Position numbers and translations under genes: made by a program | Notes under the pieces: model-generated | Told to the model about the DNA's origin: nothing | Database searches by the model: none | Seen by the model: the letters and a program-made list of their open reading frames with translations, nothing else | Shown here: one piece after another, positions 4,376-46,710 of the stretch | How the letters are laid out: every line of letters begins with the position of its first letter | Position numbering within the stretch: the stretch's first letter is position 1 | DNA from: Nemopilema nomurai | Lineage: Eukaryota; Cnidaria; Scyphozoa; Rhizostomeae; Rhizostomatidae | Assembly: GCA_003864495.1 (NCBI GenBank) | Contig: ML133454.1 | Span: 152,501 to 216,500, forward strand | DNA length: 64,000 nt | Reading direction: 5' to 3'

Positions 4376-4681
4376 AAATACCATACCATACTATACCATA
4401 CCATACATAGCATACCATACCAGACCATACCATACCATACCATACCATACCACACCATGCCATACCATAGCATAGCATAGCATAGCATAGCATAGCATAC
4501 CATCCCATACCATACCAAACCATACCATTGCATACCATACCATACCATACCATACCATACCAAACCATACCATACCATACCATACCATACCATCTCATCC
4601 CATACCACACCATACCATTCTATACCATACCATACCATCCCATACCATACCATACCATACCATACCATACCATACCATACC
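4376..4681. repeat. Pentanucleotide microsatellite (CCATA)n
   Basis: About 305 bases made of CCATA units (TATGG on the other strand), with variant blocks such as repeated CATAG near 4465-4497. Because 5 is prime to 3, all frames read the same low-complexity Tyr/Trp/Met/Gly string on the minus strand, so the open frames here are not genes. Confidence 0.95.
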
Positions 4682-29651: not shown

Positions 29652-32600
29652 TCACTTCTTCCTTTTTAAATATTTATACCAAAGTGAATTCTTGTTTACT
29701 TCTGGCGAAACCCAACCATCCGGTATTGGGTCACCGTGTGGGGCAAGGTGAACATCCCAAAGCCGTCTAAAAGATAATATTCAAAAATTTTAACCAGCAC
29801 AATTGTGGAAAAAATGGAAGAATTAATTTTGTAACACACACATTTCATAAAAACAGCAAGGGACCGGCAAAATCAGTGTTTTAACTGACAACCTACAGAT
29901 CATCCAAGTCACGATTCGCCAGAACGAGGTTAATATTGCAACAGCAACAACAACCAAAACCAGCATTTTAAAGTAAACATGATTGAAACAAAGAAAGTCT
30001 TGCATTTCATTATTGTGTAAGATGTGTCAATTAAGTGGTACTTTGAATCTCTAATGAGTGTCAAGTTGCATAGGGTTACCTTATTTGAACCAGAGGCATT
30101 GGAGTCTCCTCAGCCTGAAGCCAGTAACGACGACATTCAAGTAATGGGTTGTAGCCAAAGAGACGCACGTGTTCTATTGATGAAATAATGCGTAAATTCA
30201 GCTTCGTGAGAAATGACTACTTGCTTCTATTTCCAATGGCAGTACTTGAACAACAAACGAGTTAAAAGTTAAATCGAGGATCCTATAGAATTGTTCCCTC
30301 TTTGGGTGTAAGCTTCGACAGATACAAAAATGTTTAAAAAACAAAATTTCGAGAATCATTTCCAATTAACAAGAGGCTTATATAGGGAATACCCGTTATT
30401 ACCAAAGAAAATAAATTTAGACAATCATTTCTCCATCTTAAGCGGGTATTTTTCTAAGGTGGTTTTACAGTCACCTAATTTACATGGGTGGAGATTTGGC
30501 TCTGCTGTGGGACACTCGAGGCCAGGGTGTAACAATGAAAAAAACAAAGAATATACTTCGAAAGTGCTCTAAAATCAAAGAAATCTACAGCATTGCAGAA
30601 ATAATGACCCCAAATATCTTATTGTATCGCAAGGCTGACATGTCGAAAAATAATGGCGGGAAAGCTGTCATTCAACGGGAAAATTTGTGAGTAGTCAACA
30701 GTAAAGAGTACACATTAAAGACAATTCTACAAAAGTAATGAATAAATCAATGGAGATTAAGAAAAAATTTGGTGCGATAGAGGGTAAATAAAGTTCTATC
30801 GCCCCTCTACGTTAAATTTTTTAGAAAACTACCACTGGAAACAAATACTTTTCAGAATAGGGCGAAAACAGTACTTCCCCATAACTCTTATCTGACAAAC
30901 ATGACAAGTTTTAACGAGGAAAACTTACCTTTCTCCATCAACGCTCTTCGCTTGCTATCGTCTTCACGCTTCATTTGCTCCTGCTCCTCTTCCAACATTA
31001 CTCGCAATGTTTTCTCTTCGTCTTTGTACAACTCTAGTCTTCTTTTAATGATTTCCCTTATCTTGTTGAGTCTTTCTTCAAATTTCTTGTCTTGATCCCC
31101 AAAAATGAAGATGCCTATGGGAAAATAGAAGATAATGAGTATAGTCATGGAAATCTGCGTACTAGATATTTGTGAAAAACTGTCATTGACATAAACTTTT
31201 AACAAGGCTAAATATTAAACTTCTTGTCTATAAATTAAGAGGATAAACCTAAATGAACTTTAAAAGAAGTAAGCGAAACCTAATGTCGTCTGACAAGATT
31301 CTCTGCAGGACACCAGAAAAACAATCAAAGACACTTATACACTCCTGAATACCCTTGTAAAATTCAGGAACCTAGATCTAGAAACCATTAGAAATTTTAA
31401 CGTGACTTTTTAGGTATTAAAAGACTAATAACTAGGGCATAATCTATTCTTATCACTGGCAGCGGTTCAAATGTCAAATCGATAATTTTGAGTATTTAAT
31501 CCCTCAAAAATGTTTTTACGCCAATTAAGGCCACCAATAACAATCAATATTGCGGCTTCTAAAGAAACTGGTCGCAGAGCACACAATTGCGAAATGAGCT
31601 AAGAAAACTTTGGCATGATTAGACGTCTCCTTGTACCTCGCTGTAACGCTGTTTGCCTTCGTATCCCCCGCAACTCCATTGTTCCATCAACCTTTTCCAG
31701 CCATTTTGAACCGTCGGCTAATTTTCTTCGCACCTCCGCCAACGATTGGCCTGCATCCGACTTCAACGAGTCGACCTTTAAGAAAAGTCATCATCAAACT
31801 ACTATTGCAGCATGTAAAGAACATAGATAGACCTTTCATTTTGCAAAGAGAAAAATATCAGACAATAAACAACCTTTTTGACAAAGATCCTTTCGGGCAA
31901 AGTTACAATAAAAAATAAACCAAAATGGCAAGCAAGCGATAAATCTTCGCAACGAAAAAGGCTTATACCATTCTTTTTGCATTTATCTTTGAAACAATTT
32001 CATGTCTCCATTCGTCGATTTTTTGATGTAACATTATGGTTCTTCTCTCTTTCTCAACCTTCTCCTTTGCTCTTCGTTCTCTGGCATTTTTCTGCCGCTC
32101 CTTAAAATAAAAACGTAGCTTTGTGAGCAAAAACTCATCACAAGAAGCACATTATGTATATTACTTTTCCTACTGCATGTCCATTGTTTCTCTTTCAATA
32201 TAGCTGCAATTGTAGAAAAAGCTTTCACTTAGTCACCCCTTCACTTTTTTGTTTACAAGTTCAAGAATTACACTTGTACTGGAGTTGAAGAGTTGAAGCT
32301 ACAGATACTATTACTTAATATCATCATCTTAATATAATAATTTTAACAGACTGCTGCTGCTACTATATCAAAATGAACAAGAGAAAAGACTATTAGCTCT
32401 GTTGGTTAGCATACTGTTGTGTTTTACTGTATAAGGTGATCAGTGATCAGTGATCAGTGATTGCTGCACCACCATTTTGCTTTTTGCTTTTGTAAGTTCT
32501 TGAAGCTTGGTTAAAAAAGGGAGACCTAAGAATACATGTGTCCATAGTCATCATTCTGTTGGGTCAGAAACTTATCATTGGCTATGATCAAAATGGCTAG

Positions 32601-35600
32601 TTTTCTGAAATTAAGACACTTTGATATTAAAACATCTGATTAGACGGCTAAGTCACACAGACACTTATCACATACCCTTTTTCTTTGCCTTCTTTTTATT
32701 TTCTTGCTTACATCCAAAATATATTCATTTTCAAAGAGCTTTCCTTGGATAGCATGTAAATTTTCCTGGTTGAAAATGAAGCAAGATTTAAATTTGACAA
32801 CTTACTAAAAATTTAAAGTGAGGTAAGCTCACCAGCTAACCATAATCTAATCATCTAAATGATTGCTACAAAATGGTACACATAAACTTATAAAAGCCAG
32901 AGAGGACTCTTATATCTAACATTAAGCAAAATGAATGCATATTTTGGCAGAATAGAAAAAGTACAGGTAGGTGAATGATGTCATTGACAGAGACCAATTC
33001 AATTTGTTAAAAGTTGCACTGTAAGATCTAATTCCATTTAAATGCTCCACAGAACTTTGTCACTAGCTCTAACAGCAGGAACTTAGGTGAAAACACATGA
33101 CAGGCAATATGAGTACCCTTGCTTGAATATGCTTGAATTTGTAATATGAGGTGTGCGGTCACATGCGCAAAACAAAGTATTTACCACAAAATTTTTTTTA
33201 AATTGCTTATGTTTAGAAGATTTTCAAAGCAGCGGTAACTCAAAGTCGCCAAATTCAAAGGCAGTTCTGTCCTTGTCCAAGGTGTTGTTAAAGTATTCCC
33301 ATTCCCATATTCGCATCCACGCCATCGCTTGCGCAAAGTAATCAAGGCGTGCGAAATGCGGCACACTGCCTATTTTCATATTACAAAGACTGAATATGTA
33401 CTAATAAGTAGTACAGAACTATGGAACTTTCTAATTGCTAAGATAAGAGTGATGGTAAAAACTGCTCTGATAGTGAAGGCATTCAGAAATTGGAAAACAA
33501 TGAAACAGGGTGCATTTGTAATGCGTAGTTGTTATTTGCAATGCGGACACAGACAGAATCTGTCTGTTCTTTTCATAGACAGAACCTCATGGACAGAATA
33601 TGGTATATTAGCCAATCAGGTTAGAGTTTCTCATTGCCATCATAAAGCCGCCATAGGTATCAGAATTACACGTTAACACCTTGTTTAGTTGTCAAGATTT
33701 ATTTGCACAAGGATTTCTACGTGCATTTACACCCCATGTGGTCTGAAGGATTCAAAACAGTGCAAGCTACACAATAGACCTGTATTCCACCGCTAGCGCT
33801 GCCTCTCAGTCATTGTTTCAAACTATAACAAATGCACAAAATAAATCATTCTCTGATCTCATAACCATTAACAATGGAACCCCAAAGATAGCAGAAAGGC
33901 TCACACGGCAAAATACAAATGAAATTCAATTGTTAAAACTTTATATTTCAACGGTTCGAAAGAAAGGAACCGCCAAGCATTAAATTTATTCAAAACACAC
34001 GTCGACCCGGTTTACAATATCTAATGAAAGCTGGTCGGGAACATGGTTTCTTGTAAGAAATACCAGGAGTAATCAGAAGTCTCATTTCCAGCTGTTTTGG
34101 AAGGGGGTTTCGCATTAACTCTCAACTTTGCTAAAAATATCGCATGTCACTGAAGTGCTGTCGGAAAGAAAGCCAGGCTACTTCCTCTTTGCCACGCTGT
34201 TCTATAGGAAAGGTAGTTCACTTTGACAATGATTGGGGGTATACTTAATAGTTTCTTGCATTAAAAACACGCTTTATCTTTTTTAATTACATAATCGGGG
34301 CGGGGCCGGCAGAGAGGCACACGGGATTAAACAGGGATACCTATTATCTTCTAAGACGAAAAAAGGGGATATCTATTTGCACCAAAACTTTACGTCACAA
34401 ATTGATAGAGACAGTAATAGTGATAAATAAAATCATAACTTTATTTTAGTGTCTAAAACATTTAGCATTTTTCACCGCACAGCCTGTTTTTAAACATATT
34501 TGTAATGAGAAAAATTACGCAATGCAAAAGGTTTGTTGCGTATGAAATGAAAGCTCAAGGCTGGTTGAGAAATTTCCCGCTTCCCATAGACTGATTCTGT
34601 CCACTATGGACAGATTCTGTCTGTAGAAGACTGATTGACCCCATGCTGGCAGGCATTGCGTATGAAATGAAAGCTCAAGGCTGGTTGAGAAATTTCCCGC
34701 TTCCCATAGACTGATTCTGTCCACTATGGACAGATTCTGTCTGTAGAAGACTGATTGACCCCGTGCTGGCAGGCATTGCGTATGAAATGAAAGCTCAAGG
34801 CTGGTTGAGAAATTTCCCGCTTCCCATAGACTGATTCTGTCCACTATGGACAGATTCTGTCTGTAGAAGACTGATTGACCCCGTGCTGGCAGGCATTGCG
34901 TATGAAATGAAAGCTCAAGGCTGGTTGAGAAATTTCCCGCTTCCCATAGACTGATTCTGTCCACTATGGACAGATTCTGTCTGTAGAAGACTGATTGACC
35001 CCGTGCTGGCAGGCATTGCGTATGAAATGAAAGCTCAAGGCTGGTTGAGAAATTTCCCGCTTCCCATAGACTGATTCTGTCCACTATGGACAGATTCTGT
35101 CTGTAGAAGACTGATTGACCCCGTGCTGGCAGGCATTGCGTATGAAATGAAAGCTCAAGGCTGGTTGAAATTTCCCGCTTCCCATAGACTGATTCTGTCC
35201 ACTATGGACAGATTCTGTCTGTAGAAGACTGATTGACCCCGTGCTGGCAGGCATTGCGTATGAAATGAAAGCTCAAGGCTGGTTGAGAAATTTCCCGCTT
35301 CCCATAGACTGATTCTGTCCACTATGGACAGATTCTGTCTGTAGAAGACTGATTGACCCCGTGCTGGCAGGCATTGCGTATGAAATGAAAGCTCAAGGCT
35401 GGTTGAGAAATTTCCCGCTTCCCATAGACTGATTCTGTCCACTATGGACAGATTCTGTCTGTAGAAGACTGATTGACCCCGTGCTGGCAGGCATTGCGTA
35501 TGAAATGAAAGCTCAAGGCTGGTTGAGAAATTTCCCGCTTCCCATAGACTGATTCTGTCCACTATGGACAGATTCTGTCTGTAGAAGACTGATTGACCCC

Positions 35601-38600
35601 GTGCTGGCAGGCATTGCGTATGAAATGAAAGCTCAAGGCTGGTTGAGAAATTTCCCGCTTCCCATAGACTGATTCTGTCCACTATGGACAGATTCTGTCT
35701 GTAGAAGACTGATTGACCCCGTGCTGGCAGGCATTGCGTATGAAATGAAAGCTCAAGGCTGGTTGAGAAATTTCCCGCTTCCCATAGACTGATTCTGTCC
35801 ACTATGGACAGATTCTGTCTGTAGAAGACTGATTGACCCCGTGCTGGCAGGCATTGCGTATGAAATGAAAGCTCAAGGCTGGTTGAGAAATTTCCCGCTT
35901 CCCATAGACTGATTCTGTCCACTATGGACAGATTCTGTCTGTAGAAGACTGATTGACCCGTGCTGGCAGGCATTGCGTATGAAATGAAAGCTCAAGGCTG
36001 GTTGAGAAATTTCCCGCTTCCCATAGACTGATTCTGTCCACTATGGACAGATTCTGTCTGTAGAAGACTGATTGACCCCGTGCTGGCAGGCATTGCGTAT
36101 GAAATGAAAGCTCAAGGCTGGTTGAGAAATTTCCCGCTTCCCATAGACTGATTCTGTCCACTAGGACAGATTCTGTCTGTAGAAGACTGATTGACCCCGT
36201 GCTGGCAGGCATTGCGTATGAAATGAAAGCTCAAGGCTGGTTGAGAAATTTCCCGCTTCCCATAGACTGATTCTGTCCACTATGGACAGATTCTGTCTGT
36301 AGAAGACTGATTGACCCCGTGCTGGCAGGCATTGCGTATGAAATGAAAGCTCAAGGCTGGTTGAGAAATTTCCCGCTTCCCATAGACTGATTCTGTCCAC
36401 TATGGACAGATTCTGTCTGTAGAAGACTGATTGACCCCGTGCTGGCAGGCATTGCGTATGAAATGAAAGCTCAAGGCTGGTTGAGAAATTTCCCGCTTCC
36501 CATAGACTGATTCTGTCCACTATGGACAGATTCTGTCTGTAGAAGACTGATTGACCCCGTGCTGGCAGGCATTGCGTATGAAATGAAAGCTCAAGGCTGG
36601 TTGAGAAATTTCCCGCTTCCCATAGACTGATTCTGTCCACTATGGACAGATTCTGTCTGTAGAAGACTGATTGACCCCGTGCTGGCAGGCATTGCGTATG
36701 AAATGAAAGCTCAAGGCTGGTTGAGAAATTTCCCGCTTCCCATAGACTGATTCTGTCCACTATGGACAGATTCTGTCTGTAGAAGACTGATTGACCCCGT
36801 GCTGGCAGGCATTGCGTATGAAATGAAAGCTCAAGGCTGGTTGAGAAATTTCCCGCTTCCCATAGACTGATTCTGTCCACTATGGACAGATTCTGTCTGT
36901 AGAAGACTGATTGACCCCATGCTGGCAGGCATTGCGTATGAAATGAAAGCTCAAGGCTGGTTGAGAAATTTCCCGCTTCCCATAGACTGATTCTGTCCAC
37001 TATGGACAGATTCTGTCTGTAGAAGACTGATTGACCCCTGCTGGCAGGCATTGCGTATGAAATGAAAGCTCAAGGCTGGTTGAGAAATTTCCCGCTTCCC
37101 ATAGACTGATTCTGTCCACTATGGACAGATTCTGTCTGTAGAAGACTGATTGACCCCGTGTTGGCAGGCATTGCGTATGAAATGAAAGCTCAAGGCTGGT
37201 TGAGAAATTTCCCGCTTCCCATGGACTGGTTCTGTCCACTATGGACAGATTCTGTCTGTAGAAGACTGATTGACCCCGTGCTGGCAGGCATTGCGTATGA
37301 AATCAAAGCTCAAGGCTGATTCTGGCTGCAACGGAATGGCACAAACTTCCGCTCACTTCCATCCTCCACATATTGTCCTTTGTTTTATTTCGTTGATGAA
37401 TTTTTTAAGGTGTTTGACTAGACGGTAATTCTTTCTTTTTCAAATTTTGCTGTGCACCTGCTTCTTTTCATGGATTGTTTGTAATTGTTTCACGAAAATT
37501 TGTGACTGTTTCGTGAGATTCGGCCAATTGCAGATTTTGCTAGGGATGTTGTGGTATTGGCTGAGGGTAATGCAGCCCCCTACTTGCAAGATTTTTCGAA
37601 AAAAATGTGGGGAATCAGTCTCCCCTAAAAGCTTGAGTGTTTGATTGCTGTTGGATTTTTAAGTAGATTGGCCATGAATGAAACTGTATCAGGTCATTTC
37701 AACCAGTGTGTCCTTGGGCGTGAAATCTATTCAATGCAAGGATGAGTCATGTCGGATGCTGTTTGGTTGCGGGCATTTCTGGGGTCTATTTGTCTTGGCC
37801 AATCAGGTTAGCCTTAGAAGAAATTCTGTCCAGCAGAAAAAGTTCTGTCCGTATGAGGACAGAGTTGTTTTTACCCAATCAACTGCCTTTCAGCAAAATG
37901 CGCGGGTTGGCTCTTCCAATGAAATGCCTACTTTTCAGACCATCCAATAGACACTGAAATGAAGGCTGAACACATCTATCTCAACCAATCAATATTTAGG
38001 ATGCATGATTTGGCGCGAAGTATGCTTTACATTTGGCGGGACTTTCTCTGTGCACATTCGTGTTGAAGCATCGAATCGAAAGGCATTGACAAACAATGAC
38101 TTAAAGTTTTATCTTGGGAACGGGTATTTAGCCGTTTTTTGATCACAACATTTCAGGTAAGACAATCCTGCCGTTTGTCTGAAAACGTTTTCTTAATTTC
38201 GTTTATCGGCTGCCACATTACACAATGTTACAAACAGTTGATTCTGAAGAAGAAATTTGATCTGCAATTCTTTTCTATTTATGACACTATAGTTTTGCAT
38301 TCTGCCTCGTATGGTTTCTTGCTGCCATCGAGGTCCAATTGTTAATAATTATAAGAGCAGAGAAAGTTTTATTCTGTATTCTCTGATCCGATTATTATTG
38401 TTAATGGTTATGAGATCAGAGAATGATTTATTTTGTGCATTTGTTATAGTTTGAAACAATGACTGAGAGGCAGCGCTAGCGGTGGAATACAGGTCTTTTG
38501 TGTAGCTTGCACTGTTTTGAATCCTTCAGACCACATGGGGTGTAAATGCACGTAGAAATCCTTGTGCAAATAAATCTTGACAACTAAACAAGGTGTTAAC

Positions 38601-40236
38601 GTGTAATTCTGATACCTATGGCGGCTTTATGATGGCAATGAGAAACTCTAACCTGATTGGCTAATATACCATATTCTGTCCATGAGGTTCTGTCTATGAA
38701 AAGAACAGACAGATTCTGTCTGTGTCTGCATTGCAAATAACAACTACGCATTACAAATGCACCCTGTATGGCTAATTTGATCAGTAAACATTATACAGGA
38801 TAAGTAGAATCATAAAAGTGACATCAACCTTAATACTTTCAGTCTTTTCAACAATTTCTTGCCACTTGTCTTCCTCTGTGTCTACAAATCGCATCAGTAC
38901 ATCCATACACATTTTTAACTCAGATATGCATTTGAGGTAGTTCTTCAATTCTTCTTTGAATTCTTTAAGCTGTATAAGAGATATTTGGAGATTACAGGTT
39001 GCAGACTATCAATCTATTCAGATAATTAAACTGTACAAAAAACTGTAGCTAAACTGGTCAAGTACCAATTCCAGGTCATCAAAAGCAAGGTCAAACTGTG
39101 CAAACCAACATTAATTAACCCCCAAATTGTCTGTAACACATCCCCAACTCCTGCACCATACCTTTTCATGCAACTGGAGTGTTGAACCCAAGATGGCATG
39201 TGCAGGATCTACACACAATCAAGTCACAAATGACAAGCTCATGGAAGGAGAGAGTTGGATTGTAAAGAAAAATCAGGAAGAAATCTCCCACACCCATAAT
39301 GCAAATCATGTTCCATGAAATGAGCACAAAGAGATTCAAACAAAGTTGCAAATGAGCCTAAAAAGCTCCTTTTGAATCGAAGAATTTTGAATTGGGAAAT
39401 CATACTGCAAAAGAAGCTTGTTTTAAAGATAATTTCTGGCCAAGGCAGTGTCACCAGCTTTTTGAAGCTTGAGGACAAACAAATCTATAAAAAATGTAAA
39501 AAGCTTAGCAAGATGTTGAGTTAAAAATGGATTTTGGCAAATTCAAAGTCTGAAAAACTGGAAATCGAACATAATCAAATACCTTGATGGTGCCTGTCTT
39601 TTCTGTATCTGTCGACTCTTTCTTTATATTCTTCTGCAATAGCCACTTTTTTACAAATTCATCATCATTTGGAACTATTTCTTTGCTATGGCTTTCTGGT
39701 TTGTTACTTAGCATTACTTGACTGGATTGATGTAATCCTTCACTTGCTTGCCATACCGGCCTATTGAATGGCATGTTTGGGGGAAATGGAGGCAGGCTTG
39801 GCATTCCAAATGGAGTGAAATTATCAACCATTGCAGGAAATCTGCTTCCATGTGGAAGACTTTCAAATGGTGGCAAATTCCGATTACCATGGAATACTGG
39901 ACCATTATTTCTTAAATTTGACAGTCCGGGCATTCGCATAAAACCCGGATCTTGATGAGCAGGGTCCATGCCAGGTTGGCGCCAAGAGCTAGGCCGAAAC
40001 GGAGCCCTCGGTCGTTCCGCAACAGGAGACCTATTTCGTTGGTATTGTGCCTGGAAATTACTTCCTTGGTGAGCAAAAGAATGGTTTGCGCCATGTTCCC
40101 AAGGCTGTAAGCCAATGAAGGGGGTTTGTCCTCTGTTGTCAAAGGGGTTTACTTGACGAACATTATTATCACGGAAATAAGAAGGACTTTCTGTCCTCTG
40201 CAATGGGAATTGACTGTTAGAAGGATACCTACTCAT
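29652..40236 (-). CDS. PDCD7: PDCD7 / U11-59K, minor-spliceosome U11 snRNP protein
   Basis: Eight phase-consistent minus-strand exons: 39583-40236, 38829-38969, 32676-32765, 31969-32100, 31637-31775, 30929-31114, 30080-30173 and 29652-29766, giving 516 aa (human 485). The first exon is a Pro/Asn/Phe-rich low-complexity domain, like the proline-rich N-terminus of the family. Then come coiled-coil exons with family signatures KIDEWRHEIVSKI, LKSDAGQSLAEVRRKLADG, RLNKIREIIKRRLELYKDEE and TLRVMLEEEQEQ. The C-terminal domain is LLECRRYWLQAEETPMPLVQ, then WDVHLAPHGDPIPDGWV. PDCD7 is the 59K subunit of the U11/U12 di-snRNP, which recognises U12-type introns. The exon 6-7 junction is in phase but short compared with human (the ESKLFGDP segment is missing), so a small exon may be unfound. 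Intron 2 (6.06 kb) carries the satellite transposon. Confidence 0.9.
32438..32463. repeat. Short tandem repeat of GTGATCA
   Basis: Three to four copies of a 7-base unit (GTGATCA), within intron 3 of PDCD7. Confidence 0.8.
33505..33875 (+). repeat. Left terminal inverted repeat
   Basis: 371 bases, paired with 38397-38767. Within it, GACAGAATCTGTCTGTTC and nearby CATGGACAGAAT echo the ATTCTGTC/GGACAG words of the internal satellite, suggesting the satellite grew from terminal sequence. Confidence 0.9.
34534..37317. repeat. 120-bp tandem satellite array, ~23 copies
   Basis: Unit boundaries recur every 120 bases with near-identical sequence. Each unit contains ATTCTGTCCACTATGGACAG, a short hairpin-forming inverted repeat, plus GACTGATTGACCCC. 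Variants are few: CCATGCT for CCGTGCT in a couple of units, and 1-2-base deletions near 35167, 35960, 36164 and 37038. Because 120 is divisible by 3, the minus strand reads as an endless 40-aa repeat (VDRISLWEAGNFSTSLELSF), interrupted only where those deletions fall. Confidence 0.95.
38397..38767 (-). repeat. Right terminal inverted repeat
   Basis: Reverse complement of 33505-33875 over its full 371 bases. The end CACCCTGT abuts flanking ATGGCTAATT, while the left flank is AACAATGAA, so no duplicated target is visible. Confidence 0.9.
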
Positions 40237-42741: not shown

Positions 42742-45700
42742 ATGCCCGAGTTGAATAGTTTTGGAAAGAAGAAATTGGATCAATCGTGTAATGGTCAAGT
42801 TCCGCTCGAGGCTGACGATAATGGTGAAGTATACAAGTTGTCTAGATTTGAGATAAGTAACACTAGCAGCAACAAAAACTCATGGAATGACAACTCTGTC
42901 CAGGCAAGGATAGGAATCTCCGGAAACCCAGTTGATCTTGCTGTTGTGGAGACGACGGGAATCCCAGGTCAAGTGCAAGGTCAACAGCAAGATAAACCAG
43001 GCACGCCAGTCTGCAGGAAAACAATCATTGGTGATGAAGTATTTCAAGCCACGCCAATTGACACTGCAGACTCAAATACAGCGAGAAGTGATTCAACAGA
43101 CAAGCAAAAGAGATGTACAGACATGCTGGACAGCAGCAGCATAGTAGCCTTTGACATCGACGGGAACCTAGTCCAGAAGAATGAGCAGCCAAAGGACACC
43201 CCCGCTGCTCTCAGACCTGCCCCAGTTGACCGGAAACGCGAAGTTCTCAGAATGCTTCCATCAATCGAAACAGTAATAAGCGAATGGGCATGCCCGGATC
43301 ATGTTCCTGGTGGCACCTCTAGAGCCTTCATCGTCATAGACAGCACCGTTCTTGACGCACTAGTAACAGGCGATTATGCAAATGAAAACTTTGCTATCCC
43401 TGCGACAAATGTTACACCTGTTGTTCCTGTCCTTGACGATGGTTTTGAAAGTGCCACAGCTGCAGGTCATGTGCCAGATACTGCCCCTGTCGAAGTCCCA
43501 TTCACTGGCAACATCAACATTGAAATTCAGGGTAATGATGCAACAAGCCCTAACCCTACCAGCATTGTTATCACTGATGATGTCATAGGAGATATCTCTG
43601 AAGCATCTATTCTCATAGATGATACCCCTGTTGACATCTCAGTCACTGACCATGGTGCCGGTGAGTATTCCGGTACTTCTGCAGCACATAGAGCACCTAC
43701 TGTCGTCCCTCTCGCCGGTGACGTTATGGGTGACACTCCAAGATCCGCTATCATCGCGGATAGTACCCCTGCCGACAGTTGCACCACTGATGATGTCACA
43801 AGTCATATTTCCGATACTTGTCCTGTCACAGACAAGACTCCTGCCGATGTCCAAGCTACAGACGATATCGCAGTTGACAGATCTGGTGCCTCTGATACTG
43901 CTGCACCTGATAATACCACTTCAGATGACCGTGTCACTGGTGATGTCACAGATGACATGGTTAGCGTCTCTGTTGCCAAGGATGCTACCCTTGCGGACAT
44001 CTGCACCACTGATGATGACACAAGTCATATTTCCGACACTTGTCCTGTCACAGACAAGACTCCTGCCGGTGTTCAAGCCACAGACGTTATCGCAGTTGCC
44101 AGTTCTGGTGCCTCTGATACTGCTGCACCTGATAATACCACTTCAGATGACCGTGACACTGGTGATGTCACAGATGACATGGTTAGCGACTCTGTTGCCA
44201 AGGATGCTACCCTTGCGGACATCTGCACCACTGATGATGACACAAGTCATATTTCCGACACTTGTCCTGTCACAGACAAGACTCCTGCCAATGTCAAGCT
44301 ACAGACGATATCGCAGTTGACAGATCTGGTGCCTCTGATACTGCTGCACCTGATAATACCACTTCAGATGACCGTGACACTGGTGATGTCACAGATGACA
44401 TGGTTAGCGACTCTGTTGCCAAGGATGCTACCCTTGCGGACATCTGCACCACTGATGATGACACAAGTCATATTTCCGACACTTGTCCTGTCACAGACAA
44501 GACTCCTGCCAATGTCCAAGCTACAGACGATATCGCAGTTGACAGATCTGGTGCCTCTGATACTGCTGCACCTGATAATACCACTTCAGATGACCGTGAC
44601 ACTGGTGATGTCACAGATGACATGGTTAGCGACTCTGTTGCCAAGGATGCTACCCTTGCGGACATCTGCACCACTGATGATGTCACAAGTCATATTTCCG
44701 ACACTTGTCCTGTCACAGACAAGACTCCTGCCAATGTCCAAGCTACAGACGATATCGCAGTTGACAGATCTGGTGCCTCTGATACTGCTGCACCTGATAA
44801 TACCACTTCAGATGACCGTGACACTGGTGATGTCACAGATGACATGGTTAGCGACTCTGTTGCCAAGGATGCTACCCTTGCGGACATCTGCACCACTGAT
44901 GATGTCACAAGTCATATTTCCGACACTTGTCCTGTCACAGACAAGACTCCTGCCGATGTCCAAGCTACAGACGATATCGCAGTTGACAGATCTGGTGCCT
45001 CTGATACTGCTGCACCTGATAATACCACTTCAGATGACCGTGACACTGGTGATGTCACGATGACATGGTTAGCGACTCTGTTGCCAAGGATGCTACCCTT
45101 GCGGACATCTGCACCACTGATGATGTCACAAGTCATATTTCCGACACTTGTCCTGTCACAGACAAGACTCCTGCCAATGTCCAAGCTACAGACGATATCG
45201 CAGTTGACAGATCTGGTGCCTCTGATACTGCTGCACCTGATAATACCACTTCAGATGACCGTGACACTGGTGATGTCACAGATGACATGGTTAGCGACTC
45301 TGTTGCCAAGGATGCTACCCTTGCGGACATCTGCACCTGATGATGTCACAAGTCATATTTCCGACACTTGTCCTGTCACAGACAAGACTCCTGCCAATGT
45401 CCAAGCTACAGACGATATCGCAGTTGACAGATCTGGTGCCTCTGATACTGCTGCACCTGATAATACCACTTCAGATGACCGTGACACTGGTGATGTCACA
45501 GATGACATGGTTAGCGACTCTGTTGCCAAGGATGCTACCCTTGCGGACATCTGCACCACTGATGATGTCACAAGTCATATTTCCGACACTTGTCCTGTCA
45601 CAGACAAGACTCCTGCCAATGTCCAAGCTACAGACGATATCGCAGTTGACAGATCTGGTGCCTCTGATACTGCTGCACCTGATAATACCACTTCAGATGA

Positions 45701-46710
45701 CCGTGACACTGGTGATGTCACAGATGACATGGTTAGCGACTCTGTTGCCAAGGATGCTACCCTTGCGGACATCTGCACCACTGATGATGTCACAAGTCAT
45801 ATTTCCGACACTTGTCCTGTCACAGACAAGACTCCTGCCAATGTCCAAGCTACAGACGATATCGCAGTTTGACAGATCTGGTGCCTCTGATACTGCTGCA
45901 CCTGATAATACCACTTCAGATGACCGTGACACTGGTGATGTCACAGATGACATGGTTAGCGACTCTGTTGCCAAGGATGCTTACCCTTGCGGACATCTGC
46001 ACCACTGATGATGCACAAGTCATATTTCCGACACTTGTCCTGTCACAGACAAGACTCCTGCCAATGTCCAAGCTATAGACGATATCGCAGTTGACAGATC
46101 TGGTGCCTCTGATACTGCTGCACCTGATAATACCACTTCAGATGACCGTGACACTGATGATGTCACAGATGACATGGTTAGCGACTCTGTTGCCAAGGAT
46201 GCTACCCTTGCGGACATCTGCACCACTGATGATGTCACAAGTCATATTTCCGACACTTGTCCTGTCACAGACAAGACTCCAGCCGATGTCCAAGCTACAG
46301 ACGATATCGCAGTTACCAGTTCTGGTACCTCTAATACTATTGCACCTGATAATACCACTTCAGATCCGTGTCACTGATATCACAGATGACATGGTTAGCG
46401 ACTCTTTGTGCTAAGGATGCTACCCCTGCGGACATCTGCACCACTGATGATGACACAAGTCATATTTCCGATACTTGTCCTGTCACAGACAAGACTCCTG
46501 CCGATGTCAGGCACCCTTGATATTGCTGTAGCTTCTGGCAGCATTTCTACCAATGGTGACGCCACAACTTTCGAATCGAAAGTTTCCGATACTACCTTGG
46601 ATATCGAAGGACATGTCTTCGTGCTTCATGATACTGCCGGTGGTCAACCTGTCGCTCAAAATATGGGCAATAGCCCCGCTAGTGTGCTCTTACTAGAAAT
46701 GACAGCATGA
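42742..46710 (+). CDS. Repeat-containing acidic Thr/Asp-rich protein, frame broken in the repeat array
   Basis: From ATG 42742 (MPELNSFGKKKLDQSC) a unique region of about 350 residues, hydrophilic with many Val/Pro/Thr/Asp, leads into 74-aa repeats such as TSHISDTCPVTDKTPANVQA, then TDDIAVDRSGASDTAAPDNT and DDMVSDSVAKDATLADICTT. Each unit has two Cys (SDTCP and DICTT). A unique tail (TLDIAVASGSISTNGDATTF) ends at a TGA at 46708-46710. At least eight indels of 1-2 bases break the frame (near 44293, 45058, 45337, 45868, 45981, 46013, 46365, 46405 and 46506). Start and end share the same frame, so the indels net to zero. No signal peptide or membrane helix is seen in the intended frame. Either a consensus-error-ridden real gene or a decaying one; function unknown. 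Confidence 0.55.
43787..46505 (+). repeat. 222-bp coding tandem repeat, ~12 copies
   Basis: Units start near 43787, 44009, 44231, 44453, 44675, 44897, 45118, 45338, 45560, 45782, 46005, 46226 and 46446. Central copies are nearly identical while the first two and last two are divergent, the usual pattern of array homogenisation from the middle. The 222-base period equals 74 codons, as expected for selection on or origin within a coding region. Confidence 0.95.

Follow-up and report, generated by a model that had tools for sequence, protein, structure and literature searches.

A 5.26-kb element spanning positions 33504-38767 was analysed in a stretch of 64,000 nucleotides from the scyphozoan Nemopilema nomurai (assembly GCA_003864495.1, contig ML133454.1, positions 152,501 to 216,500 of the forward strand; hereafter the window), where it lies in the region of the gene PDCD7. 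The element is very probably a young DNA transposon of the cut-and-paste type, non-autonomous and moved by a transposase supplied from elsewhere; it is characterised by inverted ends of 372 bp, 4-bp target-site duplications and a resident array of a 120-bp satellite unit.

The element is composed of a left end, a left segment, the array, a right segment and a right end. The coordinates and the inverted-end structure given in a first-pass annotation of the window were borne out, including the array of 23.2 units of 120 bp. The two ends, 33505-33875 and 38397-38767, are inverted copies with 99.46% identity; the "about one mismatch" given for them has to be corrected to two differences in 371 positions. 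The features of the element are as follows.

33500..33503, no strand: left target-site duplication ATGA, placed by the family-wide 4-bp duplication; its right partner ATGG matches it at three of four bases.
33504..33875, plus strand: left terminal inverted repeat, 372 bp, with the tip AACAGGGTGCATTTGTAATGC; the first base A was assigned to the element by the duplication test.
33876..34535, plus strand: left inner segment, 660 bp, 90-100% alike wherever other copies retain it.
34536..37318, plus strand: satellite array of 23.2 units of 120 bp, the longest of the family, with 99% matches and a mean unit-to-unit difference of 0.35%.
37319..38396, plus strand: right inner segment of 1,078 bp, in which CCAAT-type words and CATTTCAG/GTAAGACAAT occur.
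38397..38767, minus strand: right terminal inverted repeat with the terminus CCCTGT, lacking the terminal T of the family.
38768..38771, no strand: right target-site duplication ATGG, imperfect.

Searches of the 213-Mb genome revealed a family. The 371-bp end gave at least 40 matches among the best 40 of 69 candidates, mostly arranged as facing pairs, and the right segment and the 120-bp unit gave 31 and 127 matches, respectively (all 25 and all 24 candidates scored). The 20-base tip was found with up to three mismatches at 83 places (46 forward, 37 reverse; 47 exact), compared to 4 and 1 for a reversed control. From the end, right-segment, unit and tip matches, and with the exclusion of a one-ended copy on C136 and of relatives on C1, C45 and C168, 20 two-ended copies were counted, with facing ends, the layout of the window element or variants of it, lengths of 2.9-10.1 kb and locations on many contigs. 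Nineteen of them were retrieved whole; the C120 copy was retrieved without its right end, the tip of which was taken from the tip pattern search. Both tips are exact in 18 of the 20 copies, and in L009 and L019 five or six bases of one tip are gone. The array is present in all 20 at the same position of the element, ranging from 1.2 units (C76) to the 23.2 units of the window copy. Structural variants include a C76 copy with a right end split by about 1 kb, a partly deleted left segment in L019, L020, L022 and L025, with much of it gone, and about 2 kb of other sequence within the right segment of L020, L022 and L025.

The exact borders were obtained from the flanks of 14 independent two-ended copies, after omission of L020, L025 and L026, which repeat other sites or are mosaics of them, of L009 and L019, in which one tip is incomplete, and of C120, for which the right flank was lacking. 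An exact 4-bp direct repeat was found in 10 of the 14; 500 shuffles of the flank pairing gave 0.07 on average and never more than 1. This signal emerges once one extra base per side is joined to the element, giving AACAGGG...CCCTGTT as the true tips; with the end points of the first-pass annotation no duplication length from 2 to 9 bases gave a signal across the copies. The earlier statement that a target-site duplication is absent therefore holds for those end points only: the duplication is 4 bp of variable sequence family-wide, and the window copy appeared to lack it because the true tip is one base longer. On its own, the window copy, without a clean border duplication, would fit a one-off inverted duplication that enclosed a satellite by chance. 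The 20 two-ended copies on many contigs, their 4-bp duplications and the element-free sites described below refute this explanation and leave it a probability close to nil. The many copies with variable unit number, named beforehand as the mark of a mobile satellite-carrying family, were found; ends occurring nowhere else in the genome, named as the mark of a one-off event, were not.

Element-free counterparts were detected for at least six of the 14 two-ended sites (L022, L021, L015, L012, L024 and C90; among the best 40 of 296 candidates). With a similarity of 83-96% to the joined flanks they are paralogous, with no allelic status implied, and the flanks themselves must be repeated sequence.

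Besides two-ended copies, the tip search retrieved nine further tips without a partner, of which two pairs represent the same locus twice, leaving seven. Six of these and L031 formed a set of seven truncated remnants, with 47-314 bases of the end kept, which was tested for duplications; L051 and L030 were left out because their similarity continues approximately as far as the inner limit of the end, and L029 because it retains the right segment. In all seven an A precedes ACAGGG (ACAAGG in L055), and an exact 4-bp duplication was found near the truncation in three (L049, L050, L054), with a mean of 0.86 in shuffled data (P 0.014). Element-free paralogs were found for at least two of the seven one-ended sites queried (among the best 40 of 658 candidates): the empty site of L048 has a 3-bp overlap, and that of L050 is, as we read it, compatible with a 3-bp duplication plus six filler bases. 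These remnants look like products of copy-repair that was interrupted after excision. One-ended leftovers of interrupted repair after excision have been described for P and Ac/Ds elements.

Shared ends, a 4-bp duplication and element-free sites place the family among the non-autonomous terminal-inverted-repeat transposons, and the fixed place of the array together with its variable unit number corresponds to a satellite-carrying miniature inverted-repeat transposable element (MITE) of the miDNA4 kind. A Foldback element of the Tetris kind does not fit, the array being central and the ends free of it. Also considered was a Helitron/Helentron-type rolling-circle element, with the one-ended remnants as its truncated products; central tandem repeats between conserved segments and remnants with a fixed tip would agree with it. 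To our knowledge, however, rolling-circle elements have neither target-site duplications nor long terminal inverted repeats, and the long inverted ends and the exact 4-bp duplications in 10 of 14 copies speak strongly against such an origin, which is accordingly rated as highly improbable. PIF/Harbinger elements make a 3-bp TWA duplication; the variable 4-bp duplication observed here does not agree with that group, and DDE_Tnp_4 was not found in any examined element with these ends. Duplications of about 4 bp are made by Academ, Sola, Chapaev and Ginger elements. No Academ protein was linked to the family among the frames of family copies examined.

As claimed previously, the element itself contains no transposase: stop-to-stop frames of at least 75 amino acids touching it outside the array are 77 to 145 amino acids long, and a Pfam scan of five of them gave no family match. 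The minus-strand frames in the array are the repeat itself. The extra sequence of C90, C120, L020 and L043 and of the one-ended L030 and L031 was examined for frames, and no transposase source for the family was found there; part of the frames were compared with protein families, three of the 36 tips with one to three mismatches were covered, and one assembly was searched. Three candidates for an autonomous copy were considered and rejected. The 10.1-kb C90 copy harbours another element of 6.9 kb, which has separate ends and encodes an integrase-type protein, and the C120 copy contains a nested long terminal repeat (LTR) retrotransposon. In L030, 2 kb of inner sequence has one full match and other matches of at most 189 bp, and the frames of a 9-kb stretch reach at most 121 amino acids; L030 may be autonomous if its gene has many introns.

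The two nested elements are distinct insertions within right segments. That of C90 extends from L013 position 3029 to L014 position 3880, has 381-bp inverted ends that are 99% alike and about six repeated target bases, and its frames match the integrase core rva_4 (PF24764, E 1e-71). The 6-kb retrotransposon of C120 (L032 2738-8707) has 592-bp repeats that are 99.8% alike, about four repeated target bases, and matches to reverse transcriptase and integrase.

The length of the array differs between near-identical loci. Both flanks of L020, L022 and L025 are 99.3-99.8% alike over about 600 bp, barring a few element-adjacent bases in L020, and the three share the same unusual inner structure while holding 12.9, 7.0 and 10.0 units, respectively. 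Judged from the sequences, they would most simply represent one insertion in three loci or haplotypes, and one insertion with 7.0, 10.0 and 12.9 units implies that array length changes in place. For the analysis of uniformity 195 full-length units were cut, 180 of them from the family. Pooled unit differences amount to 1.79% within and 2.47% between elements, a contrast driven by long arrays: in all five arrays with at least 14 full units, the units are closer to one another than to those of other elements, and across 16 elements the difference between units tends to fall with array length (Spearman -0.57, P 0.02). The 0.35% difference over the 23 units of the window array is equalled only by L026 with five units, and in L015 a repeated block of about six units was recognized by eye. 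Recent growth of some arrays is thus supported.

The two ends of an element were also found to resemble each other more closely than permuted pairs do. In 13 elements (omitting L043, L020, L025, L026, L009, L019 and C120) the left and right ends of the same element differ by 2.00%, compared to 2.72% for permuted partners, and none of 20,000 permutations was as low. Within the set, two end variants are confined to L022, where both ends carry them; two further variants are shared by both ends of L028 and one end of C90, and one variant is present at both ends of L011 and L012.

The following sequence of events is proposed. A transposase from elsewhere would cut the element at its tips and reinsert it with a 4-bp stagger, and the array would travel as a regular part of the body, so that an array is established at every new site. 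After excision, the gap in the chromosome would be filled with the sister or homolog as template; misaligned copying within the array could alter its length and make long arrays uniform, template switching between the two ends could keep them alike, and interrupted copying could leave one-ended remnants. That excision and copy-repair form the engine that lengthens the satellite, converts the ends and leaves one-ended scars with a duplication is offered tentatively, as a possibility rated below an even chance; signs of each of these processes are present within this single family. The main rival for the gap-repair step is unequal crossing-over, and both may act. Array length and uniformity could have arisen by unequal crossing-over or replication slippage alone, independently of excision and gap repair, an explanation that comes close to even odds. 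The mosaic copy L026 (C91:65626-68845), with a left flank and about the first 730 bp like L022 and a right flank and most later sites like L021, points either to recombination among dispersed copies or to a fault in the assembly; as a recombinant of two other copies it favours this alternative, as does the six-unit block of L015, which is what crossing-over would make, and the fact that uniformity is not general across elements. Crossing-over alone leaves the likeness of the ends and the one-ended remnants terminated by a duplication unexplained.

Several observations weigh against the transposon interpretation or against the excision-repair steps attached to it. Four of the 14 copies have no exact duplication, namely the window copy (ATGA/ATGG, last T lost), L022, L024 and L043. 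The overlaps at empty sites are not a constant 4 bases (L022, 0; L021, 1; L015, 6; L012, 11, 11 and 4 at its three paralogs; L024, 4; C90, 3), a spread that is attributed to paralog divergence and gap placement. Four of the seven remnants, including L053, L055 and L031, have no exact duplication at the truncation, and since the remnants were found via the tip search their intact tips are partly a matter of selection. As no transposase source was found, movement in trans is deduced from the structure alone. The likeness of ends within an element could partly be inherited from a few master copies, and haplotypes or duplication in the assembly could account for the three near-identical loci. A general homogenisation of arrays within elements, suggested by the pooled means, was discarded: when elements are taken singly, no more than 9 of 19 have units closer to one another than to those of other elements, the mean being 2.57% in both comparisons, and the confidence placed in the excision-repair engine was for this reason lowered slightly. 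Finally, copy-repair itself was not observed, unequal crossing-over could alter arrays, and the L026 mosaic exists.

The first-pass annotation had noted sequence words common to satellite and ends and had suggested that the element amplified part of itself into the satellite. The shared sequence stands: unit and end have an exact palindromic 16-mer, GACAGATTCTGTCTGT, in common in inverted sense. The proposed self-amplification is only half supported: a comparison of the unit with the inner segments and the left end gave no other exact match of at least 11 bases. Counts of the word RGACAGAAY are 8 for the approximately 2.5 kb of non-array element sequence, 46 for the array and 3 for the approximately 58.7 kb of the remaining window; a slightly looser pattern occurs four times per end, three times per unit and three times in the right segment. 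This distribution over ends, units and right segment, with its strong enrichment of the strict word over the rest of the window, would be expected if the words were extra transposase binding sites and long arrays were selected for them. Part of the enrichment, however, is the inverted duplication itself, and the word positions are no more conserved than the rest of the unit (variability 0.0162 compared to 0.0154 in 180 family units, rank 69 of 120 circular shifts); in the relatives L041 and L042 they are more variable (0.0861 compared to 0.0486, 15 units). A functional array of this kind is considered unlikely.

All 127 unit matches fall in members of the family, in the one-ended C136 copy or in the relatives on C45, C1 and C168. 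No free-standing satellite of the 120-bp unit was seen in the assembly, although assemblies can lack long satellites. In the relatives on C45/C1 and C168, sequence resembling the right segment (75% and 69%, respectively) adjoins the 120-bp unit; the C45/C1 relative (L041/L042) has a nine-unit array and an alignable right segment. As the relatives hold both parts side by side, the association of array and promoter-like segment is an old one. In the alignment of the C45 relative, one CCAATCA word and TTTCAG/GTAAGACAAT are preserved and give the impression of a promoter with a first exon; a former transposon gene may have had these two parts in what is now the right inner segment of the family.

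Downstream of the promoter-like segment, DDE_Tnp_4 pieces lie on the same strand in both relatives (L041; L044 and L069), and pieces of this type also lie on their other sides. No ends matching the family were seen in either diverged relative (C45/C1, C168). The DDE_Tnp_4 protein of the relatives was not accepted as the partner transposase, given that neither relative has matching ends and that similar pieces occur on the other sides. A large element spanning the C45 tip and the array was likewise unsupported, the tip being a 139-base remnant. A frame in L041 (7069-8145, minus strand), oriented opposite to the relative and without a Pfam match of its own, resembles RecQ-type helicases, with 45% identity over 84% to a eukaryote protein annotated as ATP-dependent DNA helicase Q-like. 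For a CxxC frame in L041/L042 no relatives were found, none of 22 candidates being significant. On C168 (L069, L044) a DDE_Tnp_4 frame is apparently split by another element, consisting of two identical 71-bp inverted repeats around a SAP-domain frame and a THAP plus DDE_Tnp_4 frame.

Pieces matching PDCD7 flank the window element on both sides, both on the minus strand.

30867..31114 (approximate borders), minus strand: exon of PDCD7, matching Pfam PF16021 positions 171-247 (E 2.7e-15); the border at 31114 is a splice-site reading.
38837..38970 (approximate borders), minus strand: PDCD7-like exon, based on its translation, matching PF16021 positions 3-48 (E 7e-4, below the curated cut-off).

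The previously proposed location in PDCD7 is confirmed to this extent. Profile positions 49-170 and 248-306 were not located, and further exons may lie between the two pieces, so that one intron around the element is only presumed. Two other tandem arrays were noted in the window: at 43764-46508, twelve units of 222 bp with 97% matches, within open frames resembling a repetitive protein, and at 4378-4681, 61 copies of ATACC with 88% matches.

Inverted-end transposons that house a satellite are already known (miDNA4, Xstir, a clam element and Tetris), and the present family adds one. The combination of 372-bp ends, a 4-bp duplication and one central 120-bp array was not met in the sources consulted here, which came from text searches of open-access papers. 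As described in two reviews, miDNA4 is a Tc1/mariner MITE of Xenopus tropicalis that carries a satellite (Scalvenzi and Pollet, via PMC12628747 and PMC9659126). It is likewise non-autonomous with inverted ends and a satellite present as one unit or as an array of variable length, and differs in belonging to Tc1/mariner, whereas the window family has 372-bp ends and 4-bp duplications of variable sequence. The foldback element Tetris of Drosophila virilis (PMC4079207) shares long inverted ends, a unit number variable even between alleles and the non-coding character; in Tetris, units of 220 bp form part of the inverted ends and the duplications measure 8-10 bp, in contrast to one central array and 4 bp here, and it gave rise to long satellite arrays, none of which was seen for the window family. 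The Cg_HINE elements of the Pacific oyster, described in PMC7492417 as non-autonomous Helentrons, similarly have central satellite-like repeats between flanking segments and are dispersed genome-wide; they belong to the Helentron superfamily, and the window family has long inverted ends and a target-site duplication. Xstir of Xenopus (PMC12628747) and the tandem-repeat elements of the clam Donax trunculus are of MITE type with tandem repeats, the former likened by its description and the latter by title, neither by sequence. The 3-4 bp duplications of AcademX transposons, given in PMC10045372, fit the window family as far as their length goes.

The origin and spread of satellites through gene-rich DNA are still argued. 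The family of the window is young, small and nearly fully readable, with exact borders, element-free sites and what is most simply one insertion with three array lengths, and offers a clean natural experiment on whether satellite growth is caused by transposition itself. If the excision-repair engine is true, array growth would be measurable per excision.

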